Assembly (NCBI GenBank): GCA_950106755.1
Contig: OX467085.1
Span: 4,588,001 to 4,652,000, forward strand
Length of the DNA stretch: 64,000 nt
Direction: 5' to 3'
DNA from: Climacium dendroides
Lineage: Eukaryota; Streptophyta; Bryopsida; Hypnales; Climaciaceae
Within the stretch, counting starts at the first letter, position 1. Each line of letters opens with the position of its first letter. A program made the translations under genes and the position numbers. Below the pieces are notes generated by a model that made no database searches, was not told the DNA's origin, and saw only the letters and a program-made list of their open reading frames with translations. Below are positions 21,431 to 62,044 of this stretch, piece by piece.

Positions 21431-21735
21431 TAGCACGACTAGCATTAAAGTGCAATTCAGTGATTTGCCATGAACATATTATTTTTAGCGCAACTAGAGC
21501 TAAAATACAATTGGGTGATCTTCTATAGAGGCCATATACATTTTAGCGCTAAAGTGCAATTTGATGATTTTACACAGAGGGCATATGCACTTTAGCGCGA
21601 CTAGCACTAAAATGCAATTAGGTCATTTTATACAAAAGGCATATGCACTTTAGCGCGACTAGCGTTAAAGTACAATCCGGTGATTTTACGTAGAAGGCAT
21701 ATGTACTTTAGCATGACTAGTGCTAAAGTGCAATC
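21431..21735. repeat. type I palindrome tandem array (6 units, 50-58 bp period)
   Basis: Six units, each built around an imperfect palindrome TTTAGCGC-5 nt-GCGCTAAA followed by GTGCAATT and GGTGATTTTA, have centres near 21443, 21497, 21545, 21601, 21659 and 21717. Unit 3 lacks the palindrome centre. Substitutions in one arm are sometimes unmatched in the other. The array lies about 190 bp upstream of the DUF7869 copy A start. The same palindrome occurs around and within the P1 gene. Confidence 0.88.
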
Positions 21736-21904
21736 AGGTGTCTCTATATACAAGATGTCTAAGCCACAGGATTCAGAAATGAATTCTACATGTGCTCAAC
21801 AATTCCATGTTTATTAAACTAACATATATTCCAATAGAAAAAAAATCACTATTTTTAGTAATTTTGAAATTTAAGGCAACACTATCAAACAGTATCATAT
21901 GTTG

Positions 21905-22182
21905 CATCACAAAGTTTAAACCCTACAATTTGGCAACAATTATCATGCGGTTATCATTGTTTCATGGGTTCGCACGTTAATCGCATTGTTATTGCATCAT
22001 TACGGTGTATTGCTTCGCATCGTTACCGCATCGTTACAATGCATTATTTGTAATTGCATCATAACGATGCAAAGCAATGCACCACAATGATGTGACAACA
22101 ATGCAATTAACGTGCAAACCCATGAAACAACGATAATTGCACGATAACTGTTGCCAAACCGTAGGGTTTAAACTTTGTGATG
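21905..22182. mobile_element. foldback/MITE-like inverted repeat
   Basis: Arms start CATCACAAAGTTTAAACCC and end with the inverse; pairing continues inward for well over 100 bp with mismatches (GGCAACA-TTATC, TTTCATGGGTT-GCACGTTAA, GCATTGTT). No clear target duplication was found at the ends. The unit resembles a non-autonomous foldback transposon. Confidence 0.75.
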
Positions 22183-35246: not shown

Positions 35247-36777
35247 CAAGTAACAAATCACATTCTCCATAATCAACTAACCTTTCTTTGCTATCCTGTC
35301 CTGCTAGTAGAATGGACAATCAAATTGAGGCACAGGAAATGTACTTTAAAAAATGTGAAGTGCAATTTCATGAAGACAACAAAAGTGCAGACGACCATTT
35401 CATTGAAGGAGAATATTGGGAGTTCAAAGAGCCAGAAAGAGTTGAAGCCTGGAGCTTATTCGTGATCCCATTTATAAACCAATTCTATATCTCGTATAAA
35501 TTTAAAAATACTCAATGCTTCTTGCAATTCTCCTTTCAAGAGATGGTCAAGGATGTAGAGGCAGACACACATCCCATGATCAAAGTCAAATGTATGACAA
35601 CGATTCCAAGTTTAGTAGGGAGAATTAGTACTACTTTACAATTTGCATTAACTCCATTTTTAATCCCTTCCAAATTTCCAATTGAGCTCGTTCCTCTCAA
35701 GTCTTGATATTATTCCATACCACGATGAGATCAAGGAGCTGAAAAAAACTAGACAACAACAAGTGGCAGAATGCAAACGGGACCTCCCTAATTTGGAAAA
35801 GGCTATGCAACAAAATCTGTATGTTATTCAATGACTTTTACACATTGAAGGGGAAGCTTGAGATATAGAAGGGGAATAACAGACCTTGATTAGTCTCGAA
35901 GGAGATTATCAACTAAGACGTTAGTCAGACCTCAAAGCTCAAAGTAAAGCAGAAGTTAGGTGCAAGTCAAGGTCAGAGAAATACTAAGACATCAACTCTA
36001 AAGACCAACATGCAAAAGGGGAAGAAAGCTATTGCCCCACCGCCTCAAAAGACACTAGCAGCAAAGGAATTTGAAACTTCAAAAGTTGCAGAAGGGAGTT
36101 ACTTACATGGACGAGATGGAAAATGTGCCATACTCATAGGCGACGGAGAGAAAACCTGGCTATGAGCATGTAAGTCAAGTGTGCAAGAAGTTCTGGACCA
36201 CTTGTGAAGATACATATGTCTTTACTGTTAGTGACAAGAAAGAAATTGACATCTCTTAGCTCATAGAGGCACCAACAACATTTAACATTTGATTCAAGCA
36301 AAGCAACATTGTTGAAGACATGGTCAACTACCTCCTCAATATTTCTAACAAGAAGACCAAACAAACACTCTGCATTATGCTTGTCGGCTTTAGCACGAAG
36401 CCCCCAAAGTGGGAGGAAATCAAGGCCGAGAAATTCTACATCATAAACGGGCAGCATAGTGTTGAAGCTAGCAACTACATGTTTGATGACAAAAACAATG
36501 TGGACAAGGATGAGAGGGAGTACTTTCGTAAATGGAACTGCTTTGTTGTGTGGTCAGAAGACGCGGAGAAGTTGCAATGCATCTTTGCATATTATTATTG
36601 TACAAACCATTTTGTGGCTATTCAACCTTCTTGGGCAACCAATATTCTGGAAGCTCAGAAAGCTTGGGAGGATATGGGCAAGCCCAAAAATCCGATGCTA
36701 ACAAAATTAGTTGGAATTCTTGTGGCCACAAGAAGGACAATAGAAAATAGATAGAAAAAAAGACTTTCTAGGTACGC

Positions 36778-36803
36778 ATTTTAGCATGAGGTGCGCTAAA
36801 TTG
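36778..36803. repeat. type I palindrome in P1 intron 2
   Basis: TTTAGCATGAGGTGCGCTAAA-type palindrome directly after a likely donor (CTAG|GTACGCAT at 36772). The matching intron of P2 carries a type II palindrome. Confidence 0.75.
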
Positions 36804-38095
36804 CTTCATTGAGACGCAAATCAATTCATTGCTCGCTGAATTTCCTGCCCTGCTTCTTGCAAGCCGAAGAAATTATAGAAATCTATGTTGCTATTTTTGA
36901 CGACATTTATTTAAATATGTGCTAGGTGTTTGAGAGGACAATGTATGTGAGATTCTCCATGATTGATGTTGTTAAGAACCTGAAGATCTCAAAAACAAAG
37001 TATAAAGAATAGAAATTGAAGTCACGAATAAATTTTGGCTTATTACAACATCCAATGATGTGTACAATATGTGGAGTGAGGTGATCATTGCTACCGCACA
37101 CAAAGAGCTCGTCAATCTTGACATGGAATGGCCAAAGGAGGTGTGGACTATGGATTGGATTGAACGTCGTAAATAGAAGAACCTCGTGATCAAAAAGCTT
37201 CATGGAATCAAGCCTCAACTTGGGCTCATGAATGCACAAAACAAGATCATTAGTAAGAACTGGAAGGCCTTTAAGAAGGAATGCCTTTTTTCCAGCTCCA
37301 CGATCGATGTGCTACTCAATAGGCTTGGCAAAGCCTACTTTGGCAGAGCAAAGAACAAATTGTCAAAGAACAAGGTCATCACTAAGCTATTCCAAGACGC
37401 CTATGATTTTTTCAAGGTGTTTTTCGAATACAAAACAAAATTTGAGAAACCGACAAAACTGGCCACTATCGGCCCTATGAGTGGGTCAAAAATTGTTACA
37501 TAGAATGGCCAAAAAAGGTGTCAACTGCGGAGATCGGAAAACATCTTGCGCTCGAGGTGATTGACTTCAATTCCTTACTAGGGATTGAGAAGGACAACTC
37601 TACCATAGACAACTCATACTTCATTGAAGTACTCTTATCAATGGACGAGACAAAGAAACTTGCACTTTTAGATGTTCCATCGTGGCTCTTCATTTGTGGT
37701 GACGAGGAGTAAGCTCAAGCCCTTAAGTATGTCAAGTTGAACAAGGTTTTTAAATCCTTCTTGATTTCCTATTCCTTGTACTCTATTGAAAAAAACAATC
37801 ACCTTGGAGATCTTCGAGTAGCAAAGACACCAAAAAAAATGTTCCTTATTTTCCTGCAGAATCCCAAGAACAAGAACAAGGTGGAAATCCCTTCGGAATT
37901 TGGGTATTCAGAAATGGCACGGTACATGAAGGTGCGCGCGTATAGTGAGCTAGAGTATTGGATTTACAACACCAAATTGAAAATAGAATTCTACTTGTGG
38001 CTGATGAAGATCTTTTGCAAGTCTAGCATGTCCATCTTCTCTAATTACATGGAGGAGAAGCTAATGTGCGTAGCAGTGGTAAGCAATATGACTGC

Positions 38096-38224
38096 ACTTT
38101 AGCACGAGTTGCGCTAAATTGAATTGCTTGTATTTAGTTATTGTAGTGTACTTTTCTTATCATTGTTTCTGACCTTATGCATTCAAATAAGTTGTTGTTT
38201 TAGCACAGGGCCTGCTAAAATGTC
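38096..38224. repeat. two type I palindromes in P1 intron 3
   Basis: Palindromes at 38096-38121 and 38197-38224 (CTTTAGCACGAG-TGCGCTAAA and TTTTAGCACAGG-CCTGCTAAAA). The first follows a likely donor GTGGTAAGC near 38078. The P2 counterpart intron carries type II palindromes at 46634-46822. Confidence 0.75.
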
Positions 38225-39665
38225 TGGCCTCTTATGCTCATTGCATTAACGTTATTATTTCTTCTTGGCAAATGAGTAATGTGAACATCTACACCACTGA
38301 TCTAAGTTTTCAATTTGGTTGGTGGGAAAAAAATTGTAAAAAGGCAATGACACTAGACATAGCTGACTTCTTTGAGAGTGGGTACTCGAAGACTACTGGT
38401 GAAGGTCCAAGTTCAACACCCTCATCCTCAAAGAGAAAGTTGAGGTCAAGTTAGACTTTCCAACTGAGTGAGTAGCAGTAGAAGGAGGTTTTGATTTATA
38501 AAGAATCAAAATTTGATTTCGAATCCAATGAGGAGGAGGAAGACATTGAAGACAATAGGCCTCAAGGACTTGATGAAATGGCAACATTGACCAGCCACCC
38601 ATCTACAGATATACTAGGTTCATCGGCGAACTCCATATTACCTCCTTTGTTTGTAATACCAAAGATTCAAACTCTATCTGGGCAGCCACATAAAAAGTGG
38701 AAGCGTGATAAGATTATAAATATTGCGAAGTAACTAGCGGAGATTGTAGCCCAGATTGCAGCATTGCTAGCAAATATGCAACAACAAACTCAGTTTTCCC
38801 AACGGAAAATCGAGCTTGCATTGATGCAATTGAAGAAGGACAATACGAAGGAGAGGGTTGAAAACCTTGAACTTCACAAACGTAATTAAGAATGGATGCG
38901 AGCGGAGTCCCAAACCAACCGCAAGTTAGTCCAGCAAAACAGGGAAATACTTCAAATCTTAATCAAGAAGGTTGGTATTGAACCTATTGTAGTGCTGCCC
39001 CCTCTTTTTGAAAAACGTAATATTCATCAAAATGAGAGTATTCCACTGAAATGAGAGTTACAGAAGTCTAATTTCATTCAAAACCGGAGAAGAAAATTCC
39101 TCAAACAATATTCAAATTATACCAGAATTAAAATAAGATGAACACAAGTAGGAATCAAATATCAGGACCAAAAGGTAAACTTTCATATTGACCTTTCACT
39201 TGTACACCATGAGTTGTTCTATACATCTCCAACTATGTTTGAGTAGAGGCAGTGACACTATATTATAGGCAAAAAACTATAAAAGCCAGTAATGTAGTTC
39301 ATTACACTACACTGTGTATATTGTAAAAGTTGCGAGTGTGATTCTATTGAACGCTGAGTTGTTTGTAATATGCACATTGAGCTTTAATGAAGCATGAATG
39401 CATGACTCTACATTATGAACAAGTACTATAAGTGTCATTTATTTTTGAGCTCCACAATTGCCTTTGTCATCTTTGGCCCGTGGCTGTACTTGCTTGTAAT
39501 CCATGAGCTTAGAAAGCCTTTGTACTTCCTTAAACATCTAATCCCATGGATAGAAAAAAAGAAGTGCATGTTTTCAATGGTATACTATTCTCTATATTAG
39601 GCCATCCAATTCTAGGAACAAGGAGTCCTATAAAATGAGGCTGTCGCGCGGACCACCTTCTTGTG

Positions 39666-41518
39666 CTAAACCTCTAGCAATACCACAGTCAATATTTCCA
39701 CATCTGAGGAAGAACCCATGTCCTCACCATACAATATCCGATGTGTTGCTCTATCGCAAGGTGAAGACGACATCGGTGTAGCAAAAACATCGCTAGACTT
39801 CATGGGTGAAGGAGAACATGATTTTGAACGATGTGGAGATGAACTTGGGGGACTATCCACCACCACATCATCAATGGGCTTTAGGGAGAAGTCCATTATC
39901 AAATTTGTAGTGGCAGCCGAACACATGAAGTTTCCTGTACTCAAAATTAGATTCTGCCCAAAGTCGGAGAATGAGTCAGTTGATGCAGTGCACGGAAAAC
40001 AAGTGTACCGAATAAGAGAAGACAATGTTCCCAAATTCTAAGAAAAAAAAGAGATTAGAACAATTCAAAGGAAAACTATAATTGTAATTACATTTATAAG
40101 TAAACTCCAATAACAAATATGCAATTTAGAAAATCCTGGCCATCGAATGAGGTCAACCCGACCTAAATTGGAGGAAGAAGAAAATACAAAAAGGAGTTGA
40201 TGAAAAAAAAATATTATAGAAATTACATATATCTCTAACCATACATGCGAATGTATGAGCCATTAAGGTTGAGGCGAGCTAAAGTTCACTAGGAACTTAG
40301 AAAACAATCTACATGCCAATCAACACGACTCGACCTGAACTAAAGCAATAATTAAACTACCCTCTCGTAACGCCAATTAGACGATGACATAGTCATTGCA
40401 TCGATGTGATTGATGAACATGCAATGAAATGCAGTGCACTATCGATACATTGAAGACACTCAAACTGCATCTATAAGACTATTGTACATGCCACAATTTC
40501 TCTTGTCATACAACATCTCCCGCCCAATCTTCCCTGCACTACGCTTGCGAAAAGATTTCAACCCTTCATTTCGAGCTACGTGAAGTCATCTAAGCCAAGG
40601 CAAAAGGACCATGTCCAAATATGAGTCCCTAGGACTGTTACCCTTGGAAGACCAGATGATGGGGAGAACAACGTTCTTCAACTTGTTCATGAAGTGCTTC
40701 ATATGATTGTCGTCAACTATGACAATATTCTTTCAAAAAAATTGTCCATTGAAATTATTAAACAAGGTGTTCACGTCCTTCACGAACAAGTCCTTGGTGG
40801 TGCCTGGCTCCCTGAATGTGACTATTTGGCCTTGTTCCTCACACTTGAGCGTCGTGCAAGACTCTTGCCCGAGTATAATGTGGAGCTTATCCAGACTAAC
40901 AAAAAAATACTCGATGATTTTTTGACTGGTAAACTTCTTCATCGAACTCCAAATAGAAACTTGTGCTATCAATCCTAGCTCATGAAGAAAATGAGCGCAA
41001 TTTGGACGGACAAAGACCGCCTTCGACCCCACAATCACAGGAATCATGGCGGAGTGCGGTTGGTCTGCATTCGAGACGTGTATAACCTACCCCATGTACT
41101 TGGCGTTTTCACAAACACAAGATTCCATTCAAGTCCATGACAACATTCAGCCACTTCTTAGCAAAGATCACCCTGGACGTCAATGGAATCTCAACATCCT
41201 TCGACGTATCTCCACGTTCAGATGGGGGAACCGATTCCCCATCTCAATAGACAAATGTGCAGCCAGTTACTAAGCTGCACTGACACATTTCAAAACTAAG
41301 GGAAAAAGGCAAAATCCAAACGTCACAAAAAAAAAAAGGTACCTATTAGTGTAGAGATCAAGGATGCATGAGCAAGAGGTTACCTTTTGTTGCAAAGACA
41401 ACGTCAGTCCAATGGGGTCCAAAATTTTAATCTCTAGAAACTGAGCATCTAGAATAGAAACGTTATCATCTAAGTGCATGGACTCAGATTCCGGTGCACC
41501 CCTACTTATAGCATCCAT
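39666..41518 (-). pseudogene. FCP1/HAD phosphatase-like gene relic
   Basis: Exon 1, 41518 to about 41386, MDAISRGAPESESMHLDD to LSLQQK, ends at a good donor AAAG|GTAACC. Exon 2, about 41275-40500, contains a motif I-like VVMDLNGILC (second Asp of DxD replaced by Asn), then VFVRPNCAHFLHELG, VSIWSSMKKF, ILGQESCTTLK, and IVDDNHMKHF (VDD motif). This order matches the FCP1/SCP (NLI-interacting-factor) phosphatase fold. A frameshift or stops lie near 41150-41230 and one TAG lies near 40580. A possible last exon (40039-39666) follows a T-rich-CTTAG acceptor and encodes a Ser/Pro-rich tail. Palindromes of type II lie around it (40150-40164, 41813-41831), linking it to P2. Confidence 0.6.
40150..40164. 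repeat. type II palindrome in HAD-like gene intron
   Basis: AGGTCAACCCGACCT. Partial copies lie near 40268-40284 and 40327-40336. Confidence 0.55.
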
Positions 41519-41812
41519 AACGCCACAACCAAATGCTGGACTTTGGACATACTATACAAGAGCAATAGATTGTAGAAGTTCATTCCGTCTAGCTGAAAGA
41601 GCCAAGAGAGGAGGTTCTACAATTCAAAAAGGGCCAAACAAATAAGACTTAAATTTTTTTATTGAAAATCCGTATAACTGAGTAATAAAATTGAGTATGA
41701 AAAAGTCATCACCTTACATGAAGATATGGATTAGCCAGAAAAATTGTTTTCTATCAAAAAGTTTTGTCTCCCACACTAAGGACCTCTATTTTAGTACAAC
41801 CTATGATACAAA

Positions 41813-41831
41813 TCAGCTCGAGCCGAGCTAA
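41813..41831. repeat. type II-like palindrome between HAD-like gene and P2
   Basis: TCAGCTCGAGCCGAGCTAA, an inverted repeat upstream of the HAD-like gene and downstream of P2. Confidence 0.55.
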
Positions 41832-43217
41832 CTCTATACAAATGACATTGAGTGATTGTGTGGTCAAATTGATGGTGCATCTTGGCCATCCAATGCATCA
41901 CTCTGATCATCATCAATGGTGTCAACAGGATCCGTGGGCATCTTTGGGCTAGACTCCAAGGTCTCTATGGACCTGCCACCATTCAATTGGAACTTGTGCC
42001 GTGTCTTTGTCATTGGATGGAGGTGTGGGGGTCAAGGGGCACTCTTCAACAAGAGGAGGAGCTAGAGGATCTGCGAAACCTGTAGGAGGAGTGAGACAAA
42101 ATGCACCCCAATCAATTGTGGAGTGGTACTTGGGAATGCTTGAGGATCCACTCATCGTTGGCCCTACTAGTGCTCCCTATAGTAATAGCTGCTGATCAAC
42201 TTGAGACAACTGCATGGATGCTAGAGGCATGGCCCCACTAAGATTGTTGATAATGGCCTCAAGTTTGGAGTAGTTCTTTTGTGACATAGCCACCATAAAC
42301 TATCGCAACTCCACCACCTTCTTGGCTTGCCTATCAAACATCATCTAGTCTTGTTCCCGCCTCCTCTTGAGCTCTACAATTTCTGCCTCATAGTCCTCGT
42401 CGGCTTGCGATCTTCCCCTCTTTCTTTTGTCTTTGGAGGCGGGAGACGGCATGGTAGACGAGTCAAGTGGCTGACTTGGCAACACTGAGGATCCCCGGAT
42501 GCTTTGCGAGAGGATCACTAGAGGGGTGCTTCATTCTATGGGAACATCGTCGTCATCATCACCATCACCCACTACCCCATCATTGTTTGAGGACTCATTT
42601 ACCATGGCTGCAGATGACCTCTGACCGGACGGCGTGCTTCCCTCTCCAGTTGCCTTTCTCTTGCGCTTTGATGACGATAGAGTGCTTGACCCCAATGGTT
42701 GATATGGGAATTTGCTTTCATAAATAAAGTATCCCTCTAGAAGAAAATCGTTCTTATCTAGTTTCTTTGCAATGGTTGTAATTTCAGTCCACTCGTTAGA
42801 CTCCTCCGAGTCTCCCATAGCAAACACATTAATCCCACTCATCTATAAAGTCACACATAGCATTATAAGACTACGATGGTATAAAAATTCCTGAACGAAG
42901 ATACAAAGGTATATCAAGTAATGTCAGCTGTGGGAATGCGATCCCACATGCTAGACTCATAATACTAGCATAGGACGGAAAAATTCAAAAATTGTCTCCT
43001 TCAGGAGGAAAGTTTTTTAGTTCTCCTAAGAAGTTAAGGCAAATTAGGAAAACCGGATTTCCGGATCCGGAAAAAATTTCATTAGAACTAAAAACCTAAA
43101 ATCCGGAACCCTAGAAAGTTCCGGATATCGGATGACGGCGCCGGCCCTAAACTGGAAACCGGATTCGTACTAGGGATAGGGTTTTGCCGCCAAAACCTGT
43201 CCCGTACATCGGGTCCG

Positions 43218-43225
43218 TATAAGAG
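43218..43225 (+). promoter_or_regulatory. TATA box of S copy 2
   Basis: TATAAGAG, about 200 bp before ATG 43421, in the same context as in S copy 1. Confidence 0.65.
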
Positions 43226-43420
43226 GGGGACTGTAGCCAGCCGCGGGCACACTTATCATCTTTCTTTTGTTCTTCCGCCGGCGTATTCCGTTTTCCTCGC
43301 TTCGTTAGAATTTCGGTAGACTGAGGGACTGTGTGAGTTGCGATCGTGTAGGGGTTACCGGAGTGACAATTGTGAGCAGAGATTTAGGGAGAGATTGTGT
43401 GAAGATTGATCGTGAGCACA

Positions 43421-45523
43421 ATGGCTTCTAGGGTAGGCCGGCGGAAGTTGAAGGACTTGCCTGAGGATTCAGAGGACAAGGCGCTAGCACCTGTACCTCG
43501 ACCAAAGACCATCCCGGTGATGAAGGTGGTTCCAGAGGTTCCAACGGAGGAGGACCGGCTGGCGCGCCTACGGAAGCATCTCCGCAACATGGGGTGTGAC
43601 GGACTCCTAGAAGTGCCGTGGGGAATCCGAGAGGAGAGCCTGGTTTTGGATATACTTCGTCTGGAAATTGGTATCTTGGATACCACCATTCGGGCAAAAC
43701 CAGACCAGTGGACGGTGAACACTTAGCGAGCCGTCTACAAGTTCCGGGAGGCGCCGGACAAGGTCATGGAGAAGAATCAGGAGGTGATGGAGGGAGAGTT
43801 CCGGGCGCCCGCCAATCCGAAGGAAGGTAACCAGGTTTCCGACCTAGTGAATCCGGAGTACCGGGATGTGGTAGCGTTTCTCAACCCTATCCTCCATCCC
43901 ACCAAGCCGCGGCGAGTTGTAGCGAAGGTAGCCTCCACCATCTTGGGGAGCCTCTAGGGAAAGATGATGATCGACTGGGCAGCCATCATCCACGAGCTAG
44001 TCGGAGACTTAGTGCGTGCCCTCCGGTCTGGAAAGAAGAGCCAGAGTCCTCTTCCGGCATATTTGTCTCATTTGTACGCCCACTACTCTTTGCTCAAGGC
44101 GAATGAAGAGAGTGCGTACCAGGACCTAGTCCAACTGCAGCAGTACGGAGGAGAGGAGCCCTCGCCTCGAGACGGACCGGACGATGAGGACACTAAGGAA
44201 GAGGAGCCGGTCTCTCCGCTAAAGAAGAGGAAACGGCGGAATAGGACACCGCTGGTAAGTCCGTCAGAGGAGCCTCCTACACCGGAACCACAGGAAGAGG
44301 TTCAGGAGGTAAAGACGGAAACCGGACCTGTTCCGAAGGGAGTCCAACCATCCTTACAACTAGTTGGGCCGATACGACCACACACCGTCGCCACTCAGGC
44401 TGAGGCCGGACCCTCCCGGACCCGAATGATAGAAGTGGAGGAGAGGGATCGGACCACCATGCGATTGGGAGGGTCACCCCTAGAAGACATCCAAGAGATG
44501 GCTCAGCATCTGGTGTGGCGGGTAGACGATCTCTTCTAGATCTGCAAGAACTATGATGGAGCCCTCAAACGAGTGTGCCGGAAGATGGCGCTAACCGACC
44601 GGAATGCCATTTTCCGGAGGACGGATGCATTGGTGGCAGCGGAGCAACAAAACAACCTCCTCATAGCAGAACAGAAGAATTTGGTAACAGAGCTGGGGGC
44701 GTTGCGCGTAGAAAACCGGACGTTGCGAGACCAAGTCCGAAACTTGGAATCCCACTGTGTGGATTTAGAGAGCGCCATCCGCACCGCTAAGGAGATAGCC
44801 CGGCTCACAGAAGAAGCTCATCGCCGGCAGATAGCGGCCTTATGCGAAAGCGTAGTTCAGCTCCGGAGCTCTCTAGAGGTCCCGGCAGACTACATCAACA
44901 AGGCCTAGCTGTTTGAAACTAACCTCGATGCAGCCGCCAGCTCAAGTCGGGTTCCTATCGTCAAATGCTTACTAGAGCAGGCAAGACGAATGGATACATC
45001 TCGGGCCGTGATGAAGGAGATGTTGGAGTACATTATGTCCACAGAGTCGGATCCGGCACCTCAATCTCCCCCGTCAGCGCAGACTTTGGTGGTTCCGGAA
45101 AGCAGCGATCCGGAACCTATGGTTACGGAGGTCTCACCGGTGGTCCCAGTAAATCCGGAACTTTCACCACCAGCCGGAAGACCAGAAGGAGTGGACTGGG
45201 GAGCAGTGGTACCTCCGGGAAGTGAAGACCTGCTGCCGGTGACTCCGACCATTGACCTAACGGGTGCTTCTCCGGAAGTTCACGCCGGACGGACGGTATA
45301 GTCTTCTCCACGTCATAAGAAGACTCAGAAAGATGCGAGAGGGAGTCCGGACACTCAAGTAGTCGGGACTAGGAGTGTAGACAGGGACACCAGTATTGTG
45401 GAAATCTCAAGATGGGGCCAAAGGGGTCCGAATCTGTTTTCTCCGAAGGGTAGCCGGAAAGAGGTAAAGTTGGATCTTCTGAAGGACTATGTTCCTCCTA
45501 AAGATCCAGATTCAAAAGAATAG
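43421..45523 (+). pseudogene. family S ORF, copy 2 (about 700 codons, amber stops)
   Basis: Start ATG 43421 (MASRVGRRKLKDLPEDSEDK); the in-frame codon 15 bases upstream is TTG. One frame runs to TAG 45521-45523 with five internal stops, all TAG (about 43724, 43955, 44537, 44906, 45299). Blocks: GLLEVPWGIREESLV, RAVYKFREAP, HPTKPRRVVAKVASTILGSL, DWAAIIHELVGDLVRALRSG, basic PLKKRKRRNRTP, Pro/Glu-rich linker, a coiled-coil (44560-44900), then a Pro-rich acidic tail ending PKDPDSKE. Stops at 43724 and 45299 replace TGG and CAG still present in copy 1. No protease, reverse transcriptase or integrase motif is seen. A gag-like structural role is inferred from composition and place; the family is otherwise unknown to me. 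Confidence 0.7.
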
Positions 45524-46633
45524 TATATAGTAGTGTAGTATAATACCGGAGTCCGGCCGTCAAAGCCGGAAAAATAGGATCTGGAATCTTCCGGAAATCT
45601 AGCGGACCAGTAGGAATGCTTTGTAGGATTTTTAGGATGACGTTAGTCTTAGTATAAGTAGGATTTTTAATGACCTTTCTGGTCATTCACAACCATCTCA
45701 TAGTTTCAGCATTGTACCATTTGCAGAGTTTAATTCTAAAGTGTGTTGGAGTATCCAATCTCTTATCTTTCTTGTGTACGGTATATGTTTGTGAGAGGTG
45801 TGAGTCCATTCTTGCGTTTCCAGGACTGAGAACTTACCTTGTGTGGCAAGAGTCGATGTTGTGAGAGTATCCGGATGTATTAACTTGAGGGGGAGATCAA
45901 TCGGATGGTTCCGGCAGTAAGGTTAGGGTAGTACTGCTCGGATACCGGTATAGCCTGCGTGTAGGATATAGCCCTAGGGGAAAAGGGGTGTCTGAGAGGC
46001 TGCTAGCAAATTTCCGTGTACGGAGGTATTGCCGGACGTGCCCGAATTCCGGATTGCCGGAATTCCTCGTAGAACAGAGTTAAGCCCCAGCACAAGCACA
46101 AGAAAGTATAGGAGAAACCAGCCGGTCGACAGGAGGCTCAGTGTTCGGTTAAAAGTTAGAATGTCGTTGTAGTTCTTGACCGTCCCTGTGTGACCTAATC
46201 CGGAAGAGCTTCCGGATTTGTGAGGCGACGGAACAGGAGGATACTTCCGGTCCATGAAGAGTTAGGTTGCTGTTAGTATTAGAGAGAGAGAGAGAGTGAA
46301 AGAGAGCGTGTTTCCGGACACGATAAGCATCCGGACGGTGGATCTGGCCACTCGTCATCCAAACCCAAGGATCCCGGAAGGGACACTGAAACGGTTTCCG
46401 GATCCTTCCGGAACCCACCAGGCACTAGTGTCCGGACCAGACCGAAAGTCCGGAATAAGCCGACGGAGAGAAAAGTGAGTGCTTAGACTGGGATAGCCTA
46501 TGAAACCGTAATCCACAAGTCCTCGTGGGAACGATTCCGGAGCGGTTTACTCTAAGAAGGCCTTTGGTGTGAATTAAGAGCTAATTGGAGGAATATTGGT
46601 CCGACTAATCGCTACATCAGCAGTACTTTGGGT

Positions 46634-46822
46634 CAGGTTGACTCGACCTGAAGTTGAGGCATGGGCACTCAATGCCACCGGTTATGTCGAGCCGACCTAA
46701 GATGCAACCTACTCTAGTCAGTGCTACAAGTCAAGTTGACCCAACCTGACTTATATTACCTTATGATTATTGAATTACAAGAACGAAATACATGTTCATT
46801 TTATTCAGGTTGAATCGACCTT
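46634..46822. repeat. type II palindromes in P2 intron
   Basis: CAGGTTGACTCGACCTG (46634-46650), GTCGAGCCGAC (46685-46701), AGTCAAGTTGACCCAACCTG-type (46729-46751) and TTCAGGTTGAATCGACCTTA (46804-46822). They lie between the exon 3 donor of P2 and the S2 insertion. Confidence 0.8.
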
Positions 46823-48262
46823 AACCATAGCCAAAACATGTTAGTGATGTATTTCATGGAATTAATGCTACTCAAGCTTACCATTGTAGCACAAGTGAAT
46901 TTCGACCCAACGAAGAATGACATTACGCTTGCTCCAGGAGCGCAGAATTTCTTCACGAAATTGAGAAAAAACTCCATCCGTAGCTTAGTATTGTAAATCT
47001 TGAACTCTAGCTCATTGTAAGCCCTGGGCCTCGTGAATGTTTCATTGTTGGGAGCATCATAGGATGACCTCATCTTGACTGTGCTGGCATTGCTTGGGCT
47101 CTATAAAATGGTCAAATAAATTGATTCCACCACCTTCTTGCTTTGGGCAGACAAGTCACCTATACACTCATTGGGTAACAAAATGTAGTTAGCAAAACTC
47201 ATGGAGTAGTCCTTCAAAGTGGGATTGTTGTCTACAAAGTGGAGTCCCTGCATTTGCTCGATGAGGTCAGAACAAATGAGCACCCACATTGAAATGTCCT
47301 CAAAAAGGGATTGATCCTTTTTCAGGAAGGATTCGACAACTGCAGCGAAGTATGGATCGGCAAGCATACATTTAAACTTTGATACCACAATTGGGGTATA
47401 ATGCAAGTCCCACACTCCAAGCTTGATGTCCTTGATGTTCTCTACAGTGAGCACACCTCTAGGCCAATCTTGGTGCGTCTTATACATAACATTGTATGGA
47501 TGATAGTATGCAGTGGACTTTGGCGGCACAAAGTTGTTCCTTTGCTACAAGAAGACCCGAAAGAACTCAGCCGTGTACATTGACATCTCCTCAATGCTCT
47601 TTCCCTCTGCTCTTGAGTGCTTCGCCTCCATCCAATATTCGTTCCTTGGTTGCTCTAGCATCACGTTCATGGTGGCACTTGTGAAGTTTCGACTTCTTTT
47701 GAACCCCCTCCACTTCTCGTGGTTCAGCTCATTCGATGAGGTCATGAGTCCAAGGCTTGCGTCAAAGAGGTGGAGCTCCATCTTCACCTTGTCTCTTCCC
47801 TCTCTCTACCCACTTCCTAGTGGTATAGCAACTCTCTTGTACAGTAGAGACAAGTTTGATTGTGACCTTCGGGTATTCTTTGTTCTTGCTCCCTAGATTC
47901 TAATGTAGAATATGTTCGGCCAGCTTCGACAAGTTGCTGAAGGAAAGGTTACCAAGCACTTTGAAAAACTCATGCGTCAGGTTTCCTTGCTTGGGCTTCC
48001 AAGTTGCCTTCTTGTTGTACTTCAATCTTGTATTGGGGTCTGTCAACTCCCCATGCGCAGTGCTAGAGATGACCTCGCTCCACAGGTTGTACACATCATC
48101 CAAGTTGTGATAATCTTGAGCTCATTTTGGATCTCTTTAGCATCCTTGCCTTTCGCAGTCTTCTGCGCCTTTAATACATCTAGTAGAGCAAACCGCTTGT
48201 ACATTGCCAATGAGAATTCCTGCAGCATAATTTCGTATTTTATAGTCAATTTGGAGCTCTCT

Positions 48263-48437
48263 GTTTAGTTCGAACCAACCTAAACTATAGATTTCACCTT
48301 TAACATCAAATGCACCTTCTCATTCTGCTTACTTCAAATATTTCATTCATTATCACGTGAAGAAGATCAAAATATGATCAATTGTTGCAGGAACACTAGG
48401 TGCCAGACGACATACACAGATTAGGTCGACTTGACCA
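48263..48437. repeat. type II palindromes in P2 intron 2
   Basis: GTTTAGTTCG-AACCAACCTAAAC (48263-48285) and TTAGGTCGACTTGACC (48419-48437). The second begins about 10 bp after a likely splice donor (minus strand). Confidence 0.75.
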
Positions 48438-49929
48438 AAATCTCTTACCATGAATTTCTTCTTGTTTGCCACACTCCCAGCGTTTCACCTAACGTTGGAC
48501 ATTGTGTGCAATTAAGGCGGCTTCCTTCGGATTGCGTGGCCTCTCCTTGAGTTCCCACTCTTTTCTGGCTTTCAGGATGTTTGTTGATCACGAGGGCTTT
48601 AGCGCCAGAAAGTGGTTGACCCTATTGTAGTACACCAATATGTCGTGTAGTTTATGGGCATCTATGGATCAGACCACGTAGCAATCCCATTGACAAAAAT
48701 TCTTGACAATCTCTTTGTCAAGGTTTTGGTCCACCATCATTTTGCTGGCAGTCACACTGTGTTGCCCATTGATGATGAAAAAGTTTTTTCTTTCAAGTGC
48801 TGGCCAGTCCTCCGACTTTGGCTTCTCGGAGGAGTCCACTAGCATGACACATAGTGTTTGTTTTGTGGACTTATGTGGCATTTCCCAGAGGTAAGTCATC
48901 ATGTCCTTCGCGAGCTTCATTTCATGGCTACGAATGTTTAACTCCTCTGGGGCCTTGATGAGTTGCTCAATGAAAATCGTCTTTTTATCCTCCACGCCAA
49001 AGATGTAGACGTTAGTGCGATGCTTCCAATAGGCCTTGTATACTTTGGCGGACGCAATGTAATCATGCAACTTCTTGGAGTTATAAAGGAGCAGAACCTC
49101 AGTTACCGCGGACACAAAACTCTGCTCCCTTGGTAAAAATGCATTAGGGACCTTCTCTACTGTTGTTGCTACTGAGGTTCATGCCATCTTACTTTGCCTG
49201 GGAGCTGGTGGAGGAGTCACTAACTGCCTGGACTTTCTTGTCCCCTGACTCTATTGGGTTCTAGGTGTATCCATTGATCTTTGTCCCTCCACGTTACTTG
49301 AAAACTCTTGGAAGACAATTCTAACAATCATGTCTTTTTTCTTGAGCTCAAATTTCATCTTCAGAATTGTGAAGTTGTTGAGGAGTATCTTCAACCGAGA
49401 GTATAGGGCCTTTCCTGTTGCCAATTTCTTGTCCTTTGTTTTGAAGTAGTTGTGGTCAACTTTCTTCTCAAGGTCAAATATCTCCGTTTTGTACTTGATC
49501 GGTTCTAGCGTCGAGAGGAAGTGCGATATGTTGAAGGTACATTTTGAGGAATCCAAGTAAATAGTGAAGTGGTACTGGTCACTTTCAAGCTTTCCATTCA
49601 TAGCTATAACACAATGAATTTTCAAGAATGGACCACTATCGTTAGCAACGTCTTTTATTTTCTCATCAAATGATATGTTGAAGAAATGGTCCATGTCTTT
49701 AAACTTTACAGCGAAACTAATAGAATCATGTGGAGACTTCAACTCTTGACCTTCTCGGGATTTCTGAATTCCTAGTAGTTTCCGTCGTTGTCAAAATCAT
49801 CCCCTTCCTCTCCAAAGGATTTGTGTGCATAGCATATGTAGAAGGCCTCCAACTTCTCGATTTGGTCATCCATTCTGCATTCATTTTTCAGACGAAATGG
49901 TATTACTTCAGAAGTTGTTGCTTTATTGA

Positions 49930-50710
49930 TTCAGATCAATTTGACCTGAATTCCAATGCATGGAGCTTTTAGATTTCATTTTCTATGTGTTCCATCTAAT
50001 TTGATTCGGTTTGGTTTGCTTCATACGCTTTAGGTCGAGTTGACCTGAAGTTCTAATTGATGTATGCGAATAGTTCTATTATTGTTATGGCCTCATTGTT
50101 ATTGTTTAATGTTATGGGATCAACATACAAGTTGTGAGTTGTTTATTGCTTTTTGATTGCTTTCATGTTGTTTGCTTAGACTGGTTTTTGTAATGCGCTA
50201 CAATTATTTTTGATGGTATTCACTATGAGTTGTCAGTATTTGGTACTTTCAGGTTGAGTCGACTTGAATTTTATTTTATTGGTTGACACTTTTGATACCC
50301 TCAATTTTGATTATATTTCCTTTAATTTGGCTCAAATCTTCCACTTAACCATAATCGCATTTTGAAACTTCAAGTCATATCAAGCTAAATAGCAATGGAG
50401 AATTTCAGGCTTTAGGTTGGCTGACAAGTTTTTGTCTACTTGTGTCGGTCTACAGGGTTGTCTGTGGTTCAACACATTTTGCTTTAGCTATCTGTGCATT
50501 TCAAGTTGCATCAACCTGAAATGCATGAACTGCCTGTATTTTGTTTTAAATCACAAAATTATTAGGTGTGGACTGCCTATATTTCAGGTCGCACCGACCT
50601 CATTTTTGTGCTTGTATTCGACTTAGTTGAGCTTGACTTGGACTTCTAGACTACGATTTCACAGAAATTCAAGAAACCAAGACAGTAGTTCAGGTTGGGC
50701 CGACCTGAAA
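49930..50710. repeat. type II palindromes upstream of P2
   Basis: Six palindromes of the form TTCAGGTYG-NNYCGACCTGAA at 49930-49951, 50029-50050, 50248-50268, 50498-50522, 50580-50604 and 50689-50710, spaced about 80-250 bp, starting 57 bp before the P2 ATG. Sequence between them is not conserved. Confidence 0.85.
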
Positions 50711-51968: not shown

Positions 51969-52590
51969 ATAAAAGAAATGCATAAGTCGAACTCACAAAA
52001 GTCGTGCAATAGTAAAGCCTCCTGCAGAAATACACCAATCGTACCGCACTTTAAAGACCTCGCGCAAAAGGAAACAACTCCAAAAAATAAGCACTACTAG
52101 AAAATTCAGATTTTTTGTTGATTTAGACGTGTTGATCATCAGCACTTTTTTGTTGATTTGGATAGAAATCTATTGATTTGGACAAAAATCAACAAAAAAG
52201 TATTGATGATCAACACGTCCAAATCAACAAAAAATCTGGATTTTCTAGTAGTGAAGGTCGTAAAATTCAAATGCAAACACCCTCGCATAGTAGAATACCC
52301 TTACACAAGCAAGTAGGGCACCCTCGCACAAATTACGCAACGCACAAGGAAAGGAAAAAAGAAGGAAGTGGGGCGGAAATGGTGCACCAAACCCTAGTTC
52401 CACTACCACTAGACACCACACAGTACAAAAGAAATGCACAAGTCGAACTCACAGAAGCCATGCAATAGCAAAGCCTCCTACAGAAATACACCAATCGTAC
52501 TATGCTATAAAGACCTCGCACAAAAAGAAACAACTCCAAAAAATAAAGTCGCAAAAAACAAATGCAAACACCCTCGCACAAGCAAGTTCG
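51969..52590. repeat. direct duplication with MITE-filled and empty copies
   Basis: The segment AAAAGAAATGCATAAGTCGA...CAAATGCAAACACCCTCGC occurs at 51969-52091 plus 52254-52310 (MITE inside) and again, uninterrupted, at 52427-52590. The second copy preserves the empty target site (CCAAAAAATAAAGTCGC). Confidence 0.85.
52092..52253. mobile_element. CACTA-type MITE (162 bp hairpin)
   Basis: Starts CACTACTAGAAAATTCAGA and ends with its inverse, forming a long hairpin around GATTTGGATAGAAATC-like central bases. AAG flanks both sides (52089-52091 and 52254-52256). The terminal CACTACTAGAAA is shared with the MITE at 12323-12454, while the inner sequence differs. The neighbouring duplicate lacks the element. 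Confidence 0.92.
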
Positions 52591-52630
52591 TATGAAAATC
52601 TTCCTTACATGGACGACTTGACCTCGACTT

Positions 52631-55700: not shown

Positions 55701-57865
55701 GAAAAAAAAAATAATATTCAAGGGCTACTTTGATTTCATTCATCTCAAAATGAGGTTCATATTTCTATATGAGTATGTATATGAGGTTCATTCCTATTGT
55801 AAGCATCAATGTATTAGTAAGTATTTTGTGTTCACTATTCAATTTTAAAGAAATTTTAAAAAAAAATTCTCAATTAAAGAAATTTTGTATTATTTTCAAC
55901 CACATAAGACATCAACTTTTATTTCTATATGAGTATCTAGAAATGAAATTGCACTAGTCATTTTTTGGGAATGAATCAAAAAATTTGAATATCGAATATC
56001 AAAGTAGTGTTATGGAGTTAATGTTATTAGTTGAATAAAGAAAGAGGTTTACATTTTTATTTTATCACTAAACAAGAGATATCATAATACTAGGCAATAA
56101 TTAAGATCCAAAACTTAAATATCACATAGATTTTTCCTATATAAATCTATAGAGGTAAATGTCTTAAAATTTATTTGGAAAATATCCATGTAGAGTGTTT
56201 GAATATTTTTATGTCTTATTTTTGTAAATCATGCCTAATTTAATTTATATTTAATTAGATTTTAAATTTTTTAGAAGAAGATGTGTTCTACAACAACATC
56301 CAAAATTTGTTTTGCTCCAATGGCACAACACTATTACTTAAGGGTTAAAATTCTTGAGCATCTACTCTAGCATACTAAACATTTATATATCTCAAGTCCA
56401 TGGGTAGGATTATATTATTAGTTTTGTGAATCATGGTCTTCATTCTTTACCCTAGGTAGTTGCAATACCAAAAAAAGGAGAAACTGCAAAAAGAAAAAGA
56501 AAGCGCATGTAGTAAAAATCCTGTGTATACAAACCTTTAATTCACTTCTAAACTTAATTTTCCTTAAATATATCAAAAATATGATATGGAATGATTTAGT
56601 AAACTACAAAAATACAATCACCGTAGAGCCAAAACCCTAAAGACCCTAAACCCTGTAAACCCTAAACCCTAAATCCGTATAGAAGGTTGTGATTGTCTAA
56701 ATTTACAAACAGACCCTAACTTCATCCAAAACAAATTGACTTCCAAAAATTGAAAAAGAAAAAAAGAGAATGAAGGACTTCTTGCCTTTTTTATATTAAA
56801 AACAGAATCTACAAATTATTGCCTAACGGTGCAGTAAAGTGAACTTGTAAATACTCGATAGCTATCAATGGCTATTTTTGTCATTAATAGTGTAGCTAGG
56901 AATCAAAACCCTCGTACCCGAGAAGGAATTTATAGATTAATTTCTGGACTTTTAAATTTTGTCCTACACCTCCCAACTTTTCATTTGCGCCAATACATTC
57001 CCGCCAAAAAAATTTAGAATGACGCTGCGTCTGTGCACATTAGATCACTCTCTTTCTCCGTCACGATACATGGACGTTTGTGCAAGATTAGACTTCTCTC
57101 AGGCCATTACTCAATTTTGTCAACTTCTATATTTCTAGTATCTGGAGTGTTAAACTACTACGCTTAGAAGATCATGGTGAATGCTCTTGTATGCCATATT
57201 TAACTATTTTTGGACTATTGAAAGTTTAAAATTTGATAAAGAGTATAATCTCCTGATGCGTGCGTTGAAGCAGTACACTTGGAGATTTCCAGATATGTAG
57301 ACGGTTTAGTATTTTCCTTAAGGTTTAGGGTGGAATGCAATCTTGACGCTTGCAGACTTAGCTAAGAAAATTATAAAAATATCATTAGGATTAATAGTAA
57401 ACCGTAATTGTGAGAAATGGGCCTATGGGGGACAGGGTCAATGTTTAGGCCAAGTGCAGACAAGTGCTTGACATAAATCAATGGCGGCCCCCAAGATTAC
57501 ATAAATTCATTGTGAAATCTTCATAACTTCTGAATAATACATGTAACTATGACTCCATTCAAAGAACTAGATATGTAAAAAATGATATAAAATGCCACAG
57601 TGTGGAGAAAGACTAATTGTGGTACAGTACAAGACATTGACATAAAATCATGTACGCAAAGACTTCTTGTCAAATTAAAAAAAAAACATGTCTTACATTG
57701 TGTGTGAAATGGTACCCCAAGAGATCAATGGAAAAACATGCAATTGCAGTCTAGAAGGACTATAAGACAACAACTAAGTAAAAAGCTACCATTCACACTC
57801 GAGATCCTAAAGGCGACACTTCATCTGGAATCTTCAGATAGAGTGGTAAACTTTTAAAGTAAGCG
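52721..57865. other. AT-rich gene-free stretch
   Basis: No coding region supported. Degenerate direct repeats of about 200 bp occur at 53050-53440 (TCAATGATTT-C, then TTGAGGTCTCAATATAAT) and units of about 55 bp at 55130-55620 (TTTGAA-ATGTGATATTA, then TTATTATTGTA). A short telomere-like motif lies at 56632-56674. Confidence 0.45.
56632..56674. repeat. short CCCTAAA telomere-like cluster
   Basis: Five imperfect copies of the plant telomere unit CCCTAAA on the plus strand (AAACCCTAA-type). Too short for a true internal telomere; could be a telo-box-like promoter motif or a repair scar. Confidence 0.6.
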
Positions 57866-58683
57866 GGATAATCAACGCTATATTCAAAATTTTAGGAGTT
57901 TAGAACTCTTCCAAAATAATATTGTCGATTTTGATACCAATACAAATGGATTTTTTGTACATAATTTTGGTTGACAAATACTAGACATACTAATTTTTTA
58001 ATGTAATTTCCATTAAAATGAGAGTGTGTGACATACAAAGTCTCCAATTCAAACATCAGTTCAAATTCCAAGCATCAATGCTAACATTAATATAAAGAAA
58101 ATCTTTACATTTTGAACATCAAGTCATGAGCTCTGCAGTTGGTTGTAAAGGATGGTTCATGTCATTCAAACGGTCCGAGTTCGATTCCCATTGAATTTGT
58201 ATGAGCGGTTGAGGGACAAGTATGACTTGGTGCGACCTAATGACCTATGCATGCAGCTAGGAAAGTTGTAACAATCAACTGGCCCCCTATCCGGATTATG
58301 ACAAGTACTTAACACAGTTCTCAAATACAAAGTGGTTATAACCACTACTCGTTTTTTCCAGTTGCTTCAAATTATCAATAATATTCGTCATAGATATTAT
58401 AACATAAGTGCTTCAACAAAAATAAATGAAAACGTAGAAAAAAAACAAAACTCAAATGCACTTAAAAGCAATTTGTTATAATTGAAATTGAATACTCTTG
58501 TTTTGTAAAAACAAAAGCTACATTTCAAAGCATATAAGCAATACCAAACTATAAATCCAAACCAACAAAATTAAAGTATATGCCATCTACTGCAATATAT
58601 AAATTTCATCCATTACACACAATATGTGGATGGGAAATACAAAACAAAGTATACCACCTATACCCTTATGTACATATGGCTTC
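57866..58683 (-). repeat. shared 3' flank of DUF7869 copy B
   Basis: Homologous to 17587-18401, which places both within one repeated element with the DUF7869 gene. It contains the better-preserved tRNA-like segment at 58127-58188. Confidence 0.7.
58127..58188 (+). repeat. tRNA-like (SINE-head-like) segment
   Basis: ATGAGCTC-GCAGTTGGTTGTAAAGG resembles a pol III A box, and GAGTTCGATTCCC, 40-50 bp downstream, resembles a B box (GGTTCGANTCC). This is the layout of a tRNA-derived SINE head. The same place in copy A (17848-17910) is decayed, and no tail or target duplication was found. Confidence 0.4.
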
Positions 58684-61520
58684 TCAATTACAGAAAGTCA
58701 AACTCTTGTTGATGACTTCAATTTGTATAGCAGAGATTTTGATCATGCACTCCTGAGTGTCTTTCTTGATCCTCGACTTTCACGTTGTCATAAGAGCATC
58801 AATGTGTTGCCAAACGGGAGGTTCAGTTTCATCGACCTTCCAACGTAGACCTCTTTTGCTGTCCCATCCAGTGTAGAAATTTATAACATCTTGATTCCTT
58901 GATGTTGGACGGAAGTATTGAATAATGATACAATTTGGATTCTTTGGGCTGTAGTTCGGATCAGACAATGCCCTTGCAATCCACACCGGATGAGTGTCAC
59001 CATCTGCGGGTTGAACCGCAACAAAATAGCCTTCAAACAAATCTCAAGCTACCTGAAAGGATGGATTTGGACGACCACTCAACGGCCCAACGTATGGATC
59101 ATCCTCTCCAAACCCTTCATGCTCTTCACCATTCTTGTTCAATTCATCCGTTCGATCTGCTACTACTCGTGAAGTTGGCCAAAAACAATCTCTCAAAACA
59201 CCAAAAGTAGGTAATGGCTCCATCAACGTTGCCTTGACACCACGCCAATACCTCACTATGTGCTCGTAACGTCTTAGGTAATCCCCGGTGACATCTGCAT
59301 TGCATAAATTGTCCCAATATTTCAAGAATCGCGACACACCTTTGACGATGTCATCTAAGCTATTCATAGGCTTGAATGGAATAGGCAACGGTTCACCCCG
59401 TGGCCACAAACTTTGCCTTTCAGCATCTTTTTTCCAGAATTTGATGCCTCTTCCGTTTTCTCCTTACCACTCTACATCAGTGCAAAGGAGTTTGTACTTC
59501 ATGACAAGGCACCCCGTTGAGTCTAGGTAGAACTTCAACTGATGTGGTTTTGTGTGTCTAACAAGGATGTCATCACCATCAACAAGTGACCCTGCTATAA
59601 AACCCTTGAAATCGGGCACTTCTTCAATAAGGTGAGGGATAATGGGGATGGAATCCACATCCATGAACGACTTCATTAGTGCCGGTACTGTTGGAAAATT
59701 GTCCTTCAAATCCATGCTCCATCTTCCGAATAGCGCATCAATATCATCATGTGTATGACCCACAATCATGAAGTTCACATACACTTCTCGGAAGATCTTG
59801 TTCGCAACAAGTAGAGATCAGAAATAGAAAACATATCTATTTTTGTTGTCTCCAGTGGCATTGTCCATCTACACTTTCAAAATCGGCGGTAGTCGTGTGG
59901 CTGTAGCTAAAGTAATTTGTTAGTAGCAGTAAGGATGCTATACACATATCTGCACCCTCTAGCACAACCTTAAACAAATTAGTGGACTTTGAATTTGTGA
60001 ACAACTCCCGAGAGGAAACCTTCGGAACTAACTCTAAATCTCGCAACAACTTCGCCATTGATCCGACGGTGTAGTTGGAGTCGTGGAAGAAGACATCCAA
60101 GCCATAATGCGCATAGCGCACATTTGCATGACCATGTGCAATCATGCCCGTCATAGAAACCGGTAGCTTTACGAGGCCATCGAGTTCTTTATTCTTGTGA
60201 GAGAAGACCAGACAAGCAGTTTTTGAGTGATCCATTTTGTCATATATGATTGTAAGACATTCATGCGGAGACTTGAATGACAACTCTCGATTGATGTAAT
60301 ACACATCCCTGTAGGCACGAGCAATGGTAAGATGCTTATCCAACCTCCTCGCCTACTTCATAGCAGTTTGAGATCCATTAATAGCACCCTTGACAAGCTT
60401 ATTGAGTTTGTCACAAGTAGCACAGTGAGCAAAATTATCGCTTGGCTTCTTCACATCGAACTTTGTGGACCTTATCTTACTCAAGTTCGAAGTGGAGATC
60501 TCCTTCAACCCGAAAGCCGCATTGGAATCATTGAGTTTCTTCAATTGCTTCTTCCATTGAAATAAAGCCGAAAGAATCTTGGACACAACCTTCTCACATG
60601 CCTTCAAACTTTGGGTGCGATGCAGCATATGATCGGCTTCCCTGTTAAGGATGCACTTCAAAGAAGCTGTAGCTTGTAGGATATGTTCTCTAGGCTTCAA
60701 CAATCTTGTATTACCGTGATCCCTTGCTTCTTGATTGCGCTTCATGTATTTTGAGTAGCGATAGAATGTAGACTTAGTAACCCCCGCAATAAGCATCCAT
60801 GCACGCAAACATACATTTATGCCTTTAATTGTAACCATCTTCCTTTGATGTGCACCTTCATGAATTTGTCTGTGCACATCAGTCTTCATGAAGTCACGGT
60901 GTTTAAATGTCGAATTTCTGTACATTCTTTGCCAAAATGCCCAAATTTTCTCCCTAGGATTGGACACAATTCTTACTACAACACACCTTGCTAGACACCA
61001 TGTTGATTGACTCTTGTGTAAGGAGGTCTTTTGCTTTGACAGCAGTTTGACGAGGCGGATTTCAGTTGGCACTTGCATAGGGCCTAGCAGAATTTGGATG
61101 ATGGTGGATTAAATAGACTTGCTTGCAAACGGTTGAATTTATCTCTCTTTATGATTGCATAAACTTGCACCACGACAGTGCATGAGCTCAATAGGCCAAG
61201 CTACCAATGAGAAGACATTTTCTTCAGGAATGTCCTCTTCAGAATGTGACTTCGAAATGTGCACTGACACATGAGAGTCTCCAAGAGGTCTAGTGGCACC
61301 AAATACAAGATCTGAATTCACGCTATGACAAGTACCTTCTCCAACAAGAATGCTCTCTCCATTATACAAAGTAACAAACCTTGTATTCCTTTTTAAGTGA
61401 GGAAGCCCTTCACACTCAGGAACGCCAGCACTCATTTCTTGAAGTACCTGGAGTTCATCGTCTGATGAGTCCATGAGGTCAAGTGGGACATCAACGGAGC
61501 CCATCTTATCTGTAAGCATA
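58684..61520 (-). pseudogene. DUF7869-type transposon protein, copy B (decayed)
   Basis: The best preserved copy, about 940 codons. The start is ATG 61520 or in-frame ATG 61505 (MGSVDVPLDLMDSSDDE). Order: N-terminal part with a GEGTCHSVNSDLVFGA block, a Cys block (VCCSKNC, then a frameshift near 60960), INVCLRAWMLIAGVTKSTFY, CATCDKLNKLVKGAI, core IIYDKMDHSKTAC, MIAHGHANVRYAHYG, a frameshift near 59900, DNATGDNKNRYV, FREVYVNFMIVGHTHDDIDA, FGRWSMDL, FYLDSTG, then WPRGEPLPIPF and a C-terminal FEGYFVAVQPADGDTHPVWI domain that resembles a chromatin-reader (chromo/Tudor/BAH-like) fold. Lesions include TAG at 60350, TGG to TGA at about 59827 and about 58782, and CGA to TGA near 59045. Type III palindromes lie upstream. 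Confidence 0.78.
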
Positions 61521-61602
61521 AACCACGATCCGAATGGAAAATTAATAGATGAAGAAAGACCTATCAAATATTATTTAATGTGATTTATTAATTTATGTAA
61601 AT

Positions 61603-62044
61603 GTAGTTTAGGGCGGACCTCCCTAAATTGCACAACTAGACAAACAAAGTTCTAGATCAATGAAGACCAATCTCATATAAATTAATGATCATTGTACGGC
61701 GGACAACCCTTAGCTGTCTGACAATAGTGTAAAGTTTTCTGAACGCAGATGGCCTAGACCTCATTCATTTTCTTTAAAAAGGAAAATCTGTCAATATCCA
61801 TGTTGTGGCGGTTTTAGGCGAACAGCATGACCACTTTGTCAGATTTTAGAAACTAAATAAGACATCCCCTCATATTTTCTTATTTAAGTACTAAAATTGT
61901 GGCATTGAAATTTAGGATGGACCTACCTAAACTGCATGAATATAGTGTGAAATATTAAAGATTTTTCAAGACTGGACATCTTGAAATCCTTGAAATTGAA
62001 CATGGAAGAATTGCATTTCAGGGCGGACCTCCCTAAATTGCATG
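61603..62044. repeat. type III palindromes upstream of DUF7869 copy B
   Basis: Good copies TTTAGGG-CGGACCT-CCCTAAA at 61603-61632 and 62014-62044 (TTCAGGG variant), TTTAGGA-TGGACCT-ACCTAAA at 61906-61937, and degenerate ones near 61693-61716 and 61805-61820. All are followed by TTGCA or TGCAT, which recalls the GTGCAAT after type I palindromes in copy A. Spacing is about 90-110 bp. Confidence 0.83.

Follow-up and report, generated by a model that had tools for sequence, protein, structure and literature searches.

The 64-kb stretch analysed here (the window throughout; contig OX467085.1, positions 4,588,001 to 4,652,000, from the 412.6-Mb assembly of the moss Climacium dendroides) carries two decayed DUF7869 genes, copies A and B, two decayed genes for ParB-like proteins, P1 and P2, and a HAD/NIF phosphatase gene downstream of P2 (Table 1). 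A first-pass annotation had noted that short imperfect palindromes of three types crowd the noncoding DNA around these genes, each copy with its own version, and had proposed a self-recognition system in which motif and element-encoded protein diverge together. We find that the three types share one frame and that the palindrome version belongs to a lineage rather than to a single gene copy: copy A and P1 share one version, as do P2 and a second P2 copy (P2'), and likewise a third P gene (P3) and DUF7869 copy D, the last three found in flanking DNA.

All three types can be written in a single 21-bp frame, TTYAR-NN-C-n5-G-NN-YTRAA, and differ mainly in the core. When scanning the window for sites with at least 8 of 10 outer bases (TTYAG...CTRAA) and at least 6 of 8 paired bases at total lengths of 15-28 bp, we observed 42 matches at 21 bp against 8.7 in shuffles, while the remaining lengths gave 4-16 matches against 2.7-9.7; this excess at 21 bp argues that types I, II and III are a single architecture. 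The core is CG at copy A and P1, GT at P2 and the downstream HAD gene, and GG at copy B. Type I, allowing up to 3 mismatches, has 14 matches in the window against 0.12 expected, four at copy A, nine at P1 and one at copy B, and type III, allowing up to 2, has five, three of them at copy B (61607, 61911, 62017) and two that are type I sites, in agreement with where the first-pass annotation had placed both types. Exact type II matches stand at 46634 and 50691, and the surroundings of P2 hold 10 framed sites found by the scan and two more found by eye (46681, 46730). The assignment of type II to P2 and the HAD gene thus stood for the P2 sites, which carry GT, and for one of the mixed HAD-associated sites (40147, GT) but not for the other (41812, CT).

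To these site lists we added the three sites recognized by eye (21429, 46681 and 46730) for the comparison of cores and of flank identity. Permutation of the cores gave no difference between copy A and P1 (observed value reached in 13865 of 20000), a clear separation of P1 from P2 (0 of 20000), and differences between A and B (350 of 20000) and between P2 and B (46 of 20000) as well. Of the 18 P1 half-sites, 17 have C at position 6, 17 have G or A at position 7 and all have T at position 3; of the 24 P2 half-sites, 22 have G at position 6, all have T at position 7 and 15 have C at position 3. P1 and P2 are also distinct in their outer bases (4 of 20000 permutations), mainly by T or C at position 3, and a fifth type described below begins TTTAA rather than TTTAG, so the earlier description of kept outer bases around a changing core is largely, though not strictly, correct. 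Many departures within sites are transitions, the pattern expected from CpG decay. The P1 and P2 sites are islands of similarity, with pairwise identities of 0.72 and 0.69 inside the site and 0.26-0.33 in the flanks, and the corresponding values are 0.87 and 0.38-0.48 at copy B and 0.58 and 0.36-0.53 at copy A, whose sites are arranged as a tandem array of 54-58 bp and are therefore not independent.

The wider density analysis covered 302 kb of this one contig (the window, 178 kb of flanks and a 60-kb extension) together with relatives outside the genome; flank coordinates follow window numbering, negative values lying to the left. P2' occupies -82880 to -71895 and has 12 framed matches; GT occurs in one or both halves of 11 of them and in both halves of 7. 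Blocks of 82-90% identity run collinear between P2' and the P2 unit, interrupted by insertions, and past the insertion at 42929-46617 both copies continue in the same order with the P2 C-terminal exon and the HAD gene. Because P2' is collinear without the long terminal repeat (LTR)-like insertion, the sites at P2 and at HAD are part of a single unit, and what had been called a separate HAD relic is the downstream part of that unit, split off by the insertion. P2' itself is interrupted close to where intron 1 meets exon 2 by a stretch with a 958-codon transposase-like frame (-76884 to -74011), which resembles transposases of the hAT type. P3 and copy D, the latter with its long frame broken by stops at two places, lie in divergent orientation about 10 kb apart and have in common a fifth palindrome type, TTTAACTCGA-n-TCGAGTTAAA.

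With a generalised form of the frame, 242 kb yielded 68 sites where shuffles gave 12.2 (six shuffles, range 6-16). Of the 68, 54 are no more than 1 kb from a P or DUF7869 locus, some of these fitting no type and possibly due to chance. Density is thus 1.27 per kb near these loci and 0.070 per kb elsewhere, with 0.050 per kb in shuffles, rather than equal far from the genes; none of 49 distinct type-matching sites falls in a coding exon, after three at the ends of matches overrunning a donor were set aside. The crowding of palindromes into noncoding parts holds beyond the window. Clusters were present at four of four P loci and three of six DUF7869 loci; the three cluster-free loci lack the gene's initial portion, and two of these possibly represent a single copy that was split. 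In the 60-kb extension, which contains only a fragment of P and one distant relative of DUF7869, there was no type-matching site, and three loose sites equal the chance level. A very distant DUF7869 relative in the left flank (-116819 to -115533, 22% identity to a Physcomitrium protein) has no framed palindromes nearby, nor does a split, more distant copy on the plus strand (62379-63290 and 66748-67760), which lies beside LTR-like sequence. A single comparison looked for terminal inverted repeats and target duplications of the P and DUF7869 units and found neither.

The site in intron 1 of the P genes provides the strongest sign of coordinated turnover, because its position is kept and its core varies together with the cores of the same gene's promoter sites. 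In the DNA it begins 8 nt past the donor in P1, P2 and P2' and 14 nt past it in P3. A profile built from these four genes found 65 relatives, none with a Pfam domain, whereas a single-sequence search with a composite P2 found nothing. Many P-family predictions read through the intron 1 donor, and the residues beyond it spell the palindrome: windows able to encode the framed palindrome with at most one mismatch number 19 in 1,933 read-through residues versus 5 in 20,528 coding residues, a contrast reduced by the misplaced donors of P0166 and P0172, which make the read-through stretch too long. The palindrome is present in 17 of the 36 proteins with at least 8 read-through residues. By hand count its start lies 8 nt past the donor in 12 of these proteins, 6 nt past it in 2 and at a greater distance in the other 3. 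Its core is CG in the P1 clade, GT in the P2 clade and again in P0154 and P0187, and CT or GG in other clades; P1 itself belongs to a clade in which the intron sites that could be labelled are of type I. Mapped onto the P tree, the cores require 8 changes (minimum 6) against a shuffled mean of 18.6, and none of 200 shuffles was as low, so that cores track P proteins as the first-pass annotation had expected. For this test 32 of 69 rows were labelled from peptides after viewing them, not blind; P0131, P0156, P0158 and others were too unclear to be included, the state named AT/GT stands for a degenerate peptide, and GT alone requires 3 changes.

Relatives outside the genome extend the same frame. 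Contig L001 (CADCWO010000071.1), binned with a cyanobacterium, carries an open DUF7869 gene of 947 codons and five sites with the frame in 1.5 kb of noncoding DNA around it. On the strength of a 52% protein match we guess that this is moss DNA, probably from another moss. Sites 34 and 114 have CT in both halves, and 489, 3573 and 4071 combine GT and CT (3573 and 4071 being read directly off the sequence). A loose pattern occurs at two places in the bin, both on this contig, and since the reversed-pattern control also gave two, the count proves nothing by number. The one P relative with a species name is from Physcomitrium, and the named DUF7869 relatives, among the matches listed, are from Physcomitrium and Ceratodon. 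No DUF7869 relative was found on viral contigs; exact matches to type I on three viral contigs and to type II on one were judged to be chance.

Table 1. Genes, palindrome groups and insertions in the window (window coordinates)
Feature	Position	Strand	Evidence or remark
DUF7869 copy A, decayed (stops, frame changes)	18406..21221	-	PF25273; tblastn with full-length moss relatives
Type I palindromes (CG), 5' of copy A, tandem array	21429..21727		scan; 21429 by eye
LTR-like insertion (TG...CA) upstream of P1	30971..33892	+	target duplication TTAGG; inverted copy; outside the palindrome system
Six type I palindromes 5' of P1	34641..35243		match and frame scans
P1, ParB-like, decayed	35312..38451	+	tblastn with P family 35312-38084; open frames to 38451
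Type I palindrome, P1 intron 1, 8 nt past donor	36780..36800		frame scan
Two type I palindromes, last intron of P1	38098..38219		frame scan
P2 unit (P2 and downstream HAD gene)	39014..50121	-	collinear with P2', blastn blocks
Degenerate type II palindrome near HAD	40147..40167		frame scan
HAD/NIF domain of P2 unit	40736..41086	-	Pfam PF03031, E 5e-6
Degenerate palindrome near HAD, core CT	41812..41832		frame scan
P2 C-terminal exon, separated by LTR-like insertion	42534..42842	-	comparison with P2'
LTR-like insertion within P2	42929..46617	-	target duplication GCTGA; outside the palindrome system; absent there from P2'
Four type II palindromes, last intron of P2	46632..46824		scan; two by eye
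P2, ParB-like, decayed	46870..49873	-	tblastn with P family
Type II palindrome, P2 intron 1	48264..48284		frame scan
Degenerate type II palindrome, P2 intron 1, 8 nt past donor	48420..48440		frame scan
Six type II palindromes 5' of P2	49930..50709		frame scan
DUF7869 copy B, decayed	58687..61480	-	Pfam and tblastn
Three type III palindromes (GG) 5' of copy B	61607..62037		match and frame scans

The C-terminal coding sequence of P1 may extend to about 39000. DUF7869 copies A, B and D are each followed downstream by a stretch of 0.2-0.8 kb (17588-18420, 57880-58701 and -43250 to -42765) that is 71-79% conserved and may mark an element end; in copy D it contains the hairpin TTTTGGGAGG...CTCCCAAAA. 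The two LTR-like elements in Table 1 are related and in opposite orientation (73-91% complementary pieces), and both have gag-like reading frames by eye, with different target duplications. A third LTR-like piece adjoins copy B (62089-62284), and another is found in the left flank, upstream of copy D. The window also holds an open frame of 544 codons that looks kinase-like in places by eye (476-2107) and short inverted repeats resembling miniature inverted-repeat transposable elements, their arms 4-36 nt apart, at 12323-12454 (63 nt, 100% complementary), 21905-22182 and 52092-52253.

Structural modelling of P predicts a ParB/sulfiredoxin-like CTPase fold with a ParB CTPase-like domain, which lends support to the ParB-parS parallel drawn in the first-pass annotation. 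A central parS-binding helix-turn-helix was not recognized by Pfam or structural matches, the model covering the part of P before intron 1, and sequence searches of the PDB with P, DUF7869 and HAD yielded nothing significant. Within the P family all 4 rows of alignment A2 keep NGQH, while alignment A3 shows an invariant N373 followed by an almost invariant G374-V378; the position of this motif recalls that of the GERR/GxxR motif of ParB. The DUF7869 protein is a probable transposase. Copy A matches PF25273 with E 2.7e-37 on 19036-20007 (128.7 bits against a cut-off of 26) and a Physcomitrium relative scores 145.6 bits, while a piece of copy B scored alone reaches 22.6 bits, below the cut-off. 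The HAD gene of the P2 unit encodes an NIF/FCP1-like phosphatase (E 3.2e-14 for the P2' copy, Pfam PF03031), which may, speculatively, act on the transcription machinery.

We put at roughly 60% the probability that moss DNA transposons encoding P, with its predicted ParB CTPase-like fold, and the DUF7869 protein use the palindromes as parS-like recognition sites. Within a single P gene, promoter and intron sites agree in core; in two cases a P gene also agrees in core with a divergent DUF7869 gene. Palindromes stand at every P locus, where P may recognize them. P would bind as a dimer, with one monomer per half-site and the core read by P, and each element's P would recognize its own family alone; a dimeric, symmetric reader fits because the site is a 21-bp palindrome whose central CGA-n-TCG is also palindromic in types II, IV and V. 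From the dispersed sites P may then spread, keeping the element genes active against host silencing. P is the leading, if unproven, candidate reader and anti-silencing, by analogy with VANC and VirB, the presumed purpose. Of the self-recognition proposal as first made, the divergence of cores along the P tree is borne out; the binding protein and the purpose of the sites are still a proposal. More tentatively still, and with the odds somewhat against it, the system may be a eukaryotic ParB-parS serving as a private address code, in which an element's own CTPase clamp loads at its palindromes in promoters and introns and spreads so that the element stays active, and in which protein and all dispersed sites switch core together at lineage splits.

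The DUF7869 protein could instead bind the sites for transposition or autoregulation, with P a bystander, much as the TNPA protein of CACTA elements binds repeated short subterminal motifs for transposition. We consider this unlikely: the moss sites lie in promoters, 5' regions and introns rather than subterminally, many GT sites stand at P2 and P2' with no GT-type DUF7869 gene seen beside them, and the cores follow the P tree, the P tree being the one compared. The 5' and intron positions and the palindromic form of the sites would also suit host transcription factor sites driving these genes, an improbable reading given that a single factor needs no lineage-by-lineage change of core under a fixed frame and that site density elsewhere in the 302 kb is near background.

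That the sites act as RNA hairpins, with an 8-bp stem and 5-nt loop in introns or 5' untranslated regions affecting splicing or RNA stability, would account for the fixed 5-nt spacer and for an intron 1 site 8 nt from the donor. Yet the symmetric centre CGA-n-TCG of types II, IV and V is needless for a loop and needed for two-fold DNA binding, and sites reach up to 0.84 kb 5' of P2 (measured from the start codon, not the transcript end), leaving this explanation very improbable. Even less credit is due to a functionless by-product of tandem duplication and descent. The tandem array at copy A and the observation that P2 and P2' sites evolve like their flanks speak for such an origin, but the P1 and P2 sites are dispersed in DNA of background identity, and the frame recurs on L001 and across P clades.

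The system offers a natural series of candidate protein/palindrome pairs a few core letters apart, with several lineages in hand. This opens to test both the joint change of specificity in a transposon protein and its scattered sites and the action of ParB-type clamps in eukaryotic nuclei, and the laboratory moss Physcomitrium patens carries relatives of both the P and DUF7869 proteins.

A literature search did not find the term DUF7869, and among the matches listed for ParB and transposons there was no moss case, which we do not extend to any wider absence. According to the passages cited, VANC proteins of Arabidopsis VANDAL elements (Mutator-like elements, MULEs) bring about anti-silencing through motifs that are specific to the element and lie in its introns and upstream DNA (PMC5735166). 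The distribution matches the parallel drawn in the first-pass annotation: moss palindromes, too, are family-specific short motifs dense in noncoding parts, and motif and protein differ between related families. In contrast, the VANC21 motif is the 9-base YAGTATTAY in one orientation (PMC5735166) and the moss site a 21-bp palindrome, and P has a predicted ParB CTPase-like fold and accompanies DUF7869 rather than a MULE transposase. ParB-parS and the ParB relative VirB, described in the cited passages as an anti-silencer against H-NS that spreads from a parS-like site (PMC10653881), share with the moss system a ParB-fold protein and palindromic sites; they are bacterial, whereas the moss has dozens of sites with lineage-specific cores and the use of CTP (cytidine triphosphate) by P is predicted. 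A eukaryotic precedent for a transposon accessory protein with a ParB-like domain is the algal Sola1-1_Ec32, whose accessory gene lies on the strand opposite the transposase and is proposed in the cited passages to bind its own element (PMC12477816). Those passages describe no binding sites, and the algal protein has a DNA methyltransferase domain as well, whereas none was found on P, which in P2 units adjoins a HAD/NIF phosphatase. Joining the VirB clamp, the VANC motifs and the algal ParB-like accessory proteins, we propose a self-recognition system for these moss elements.
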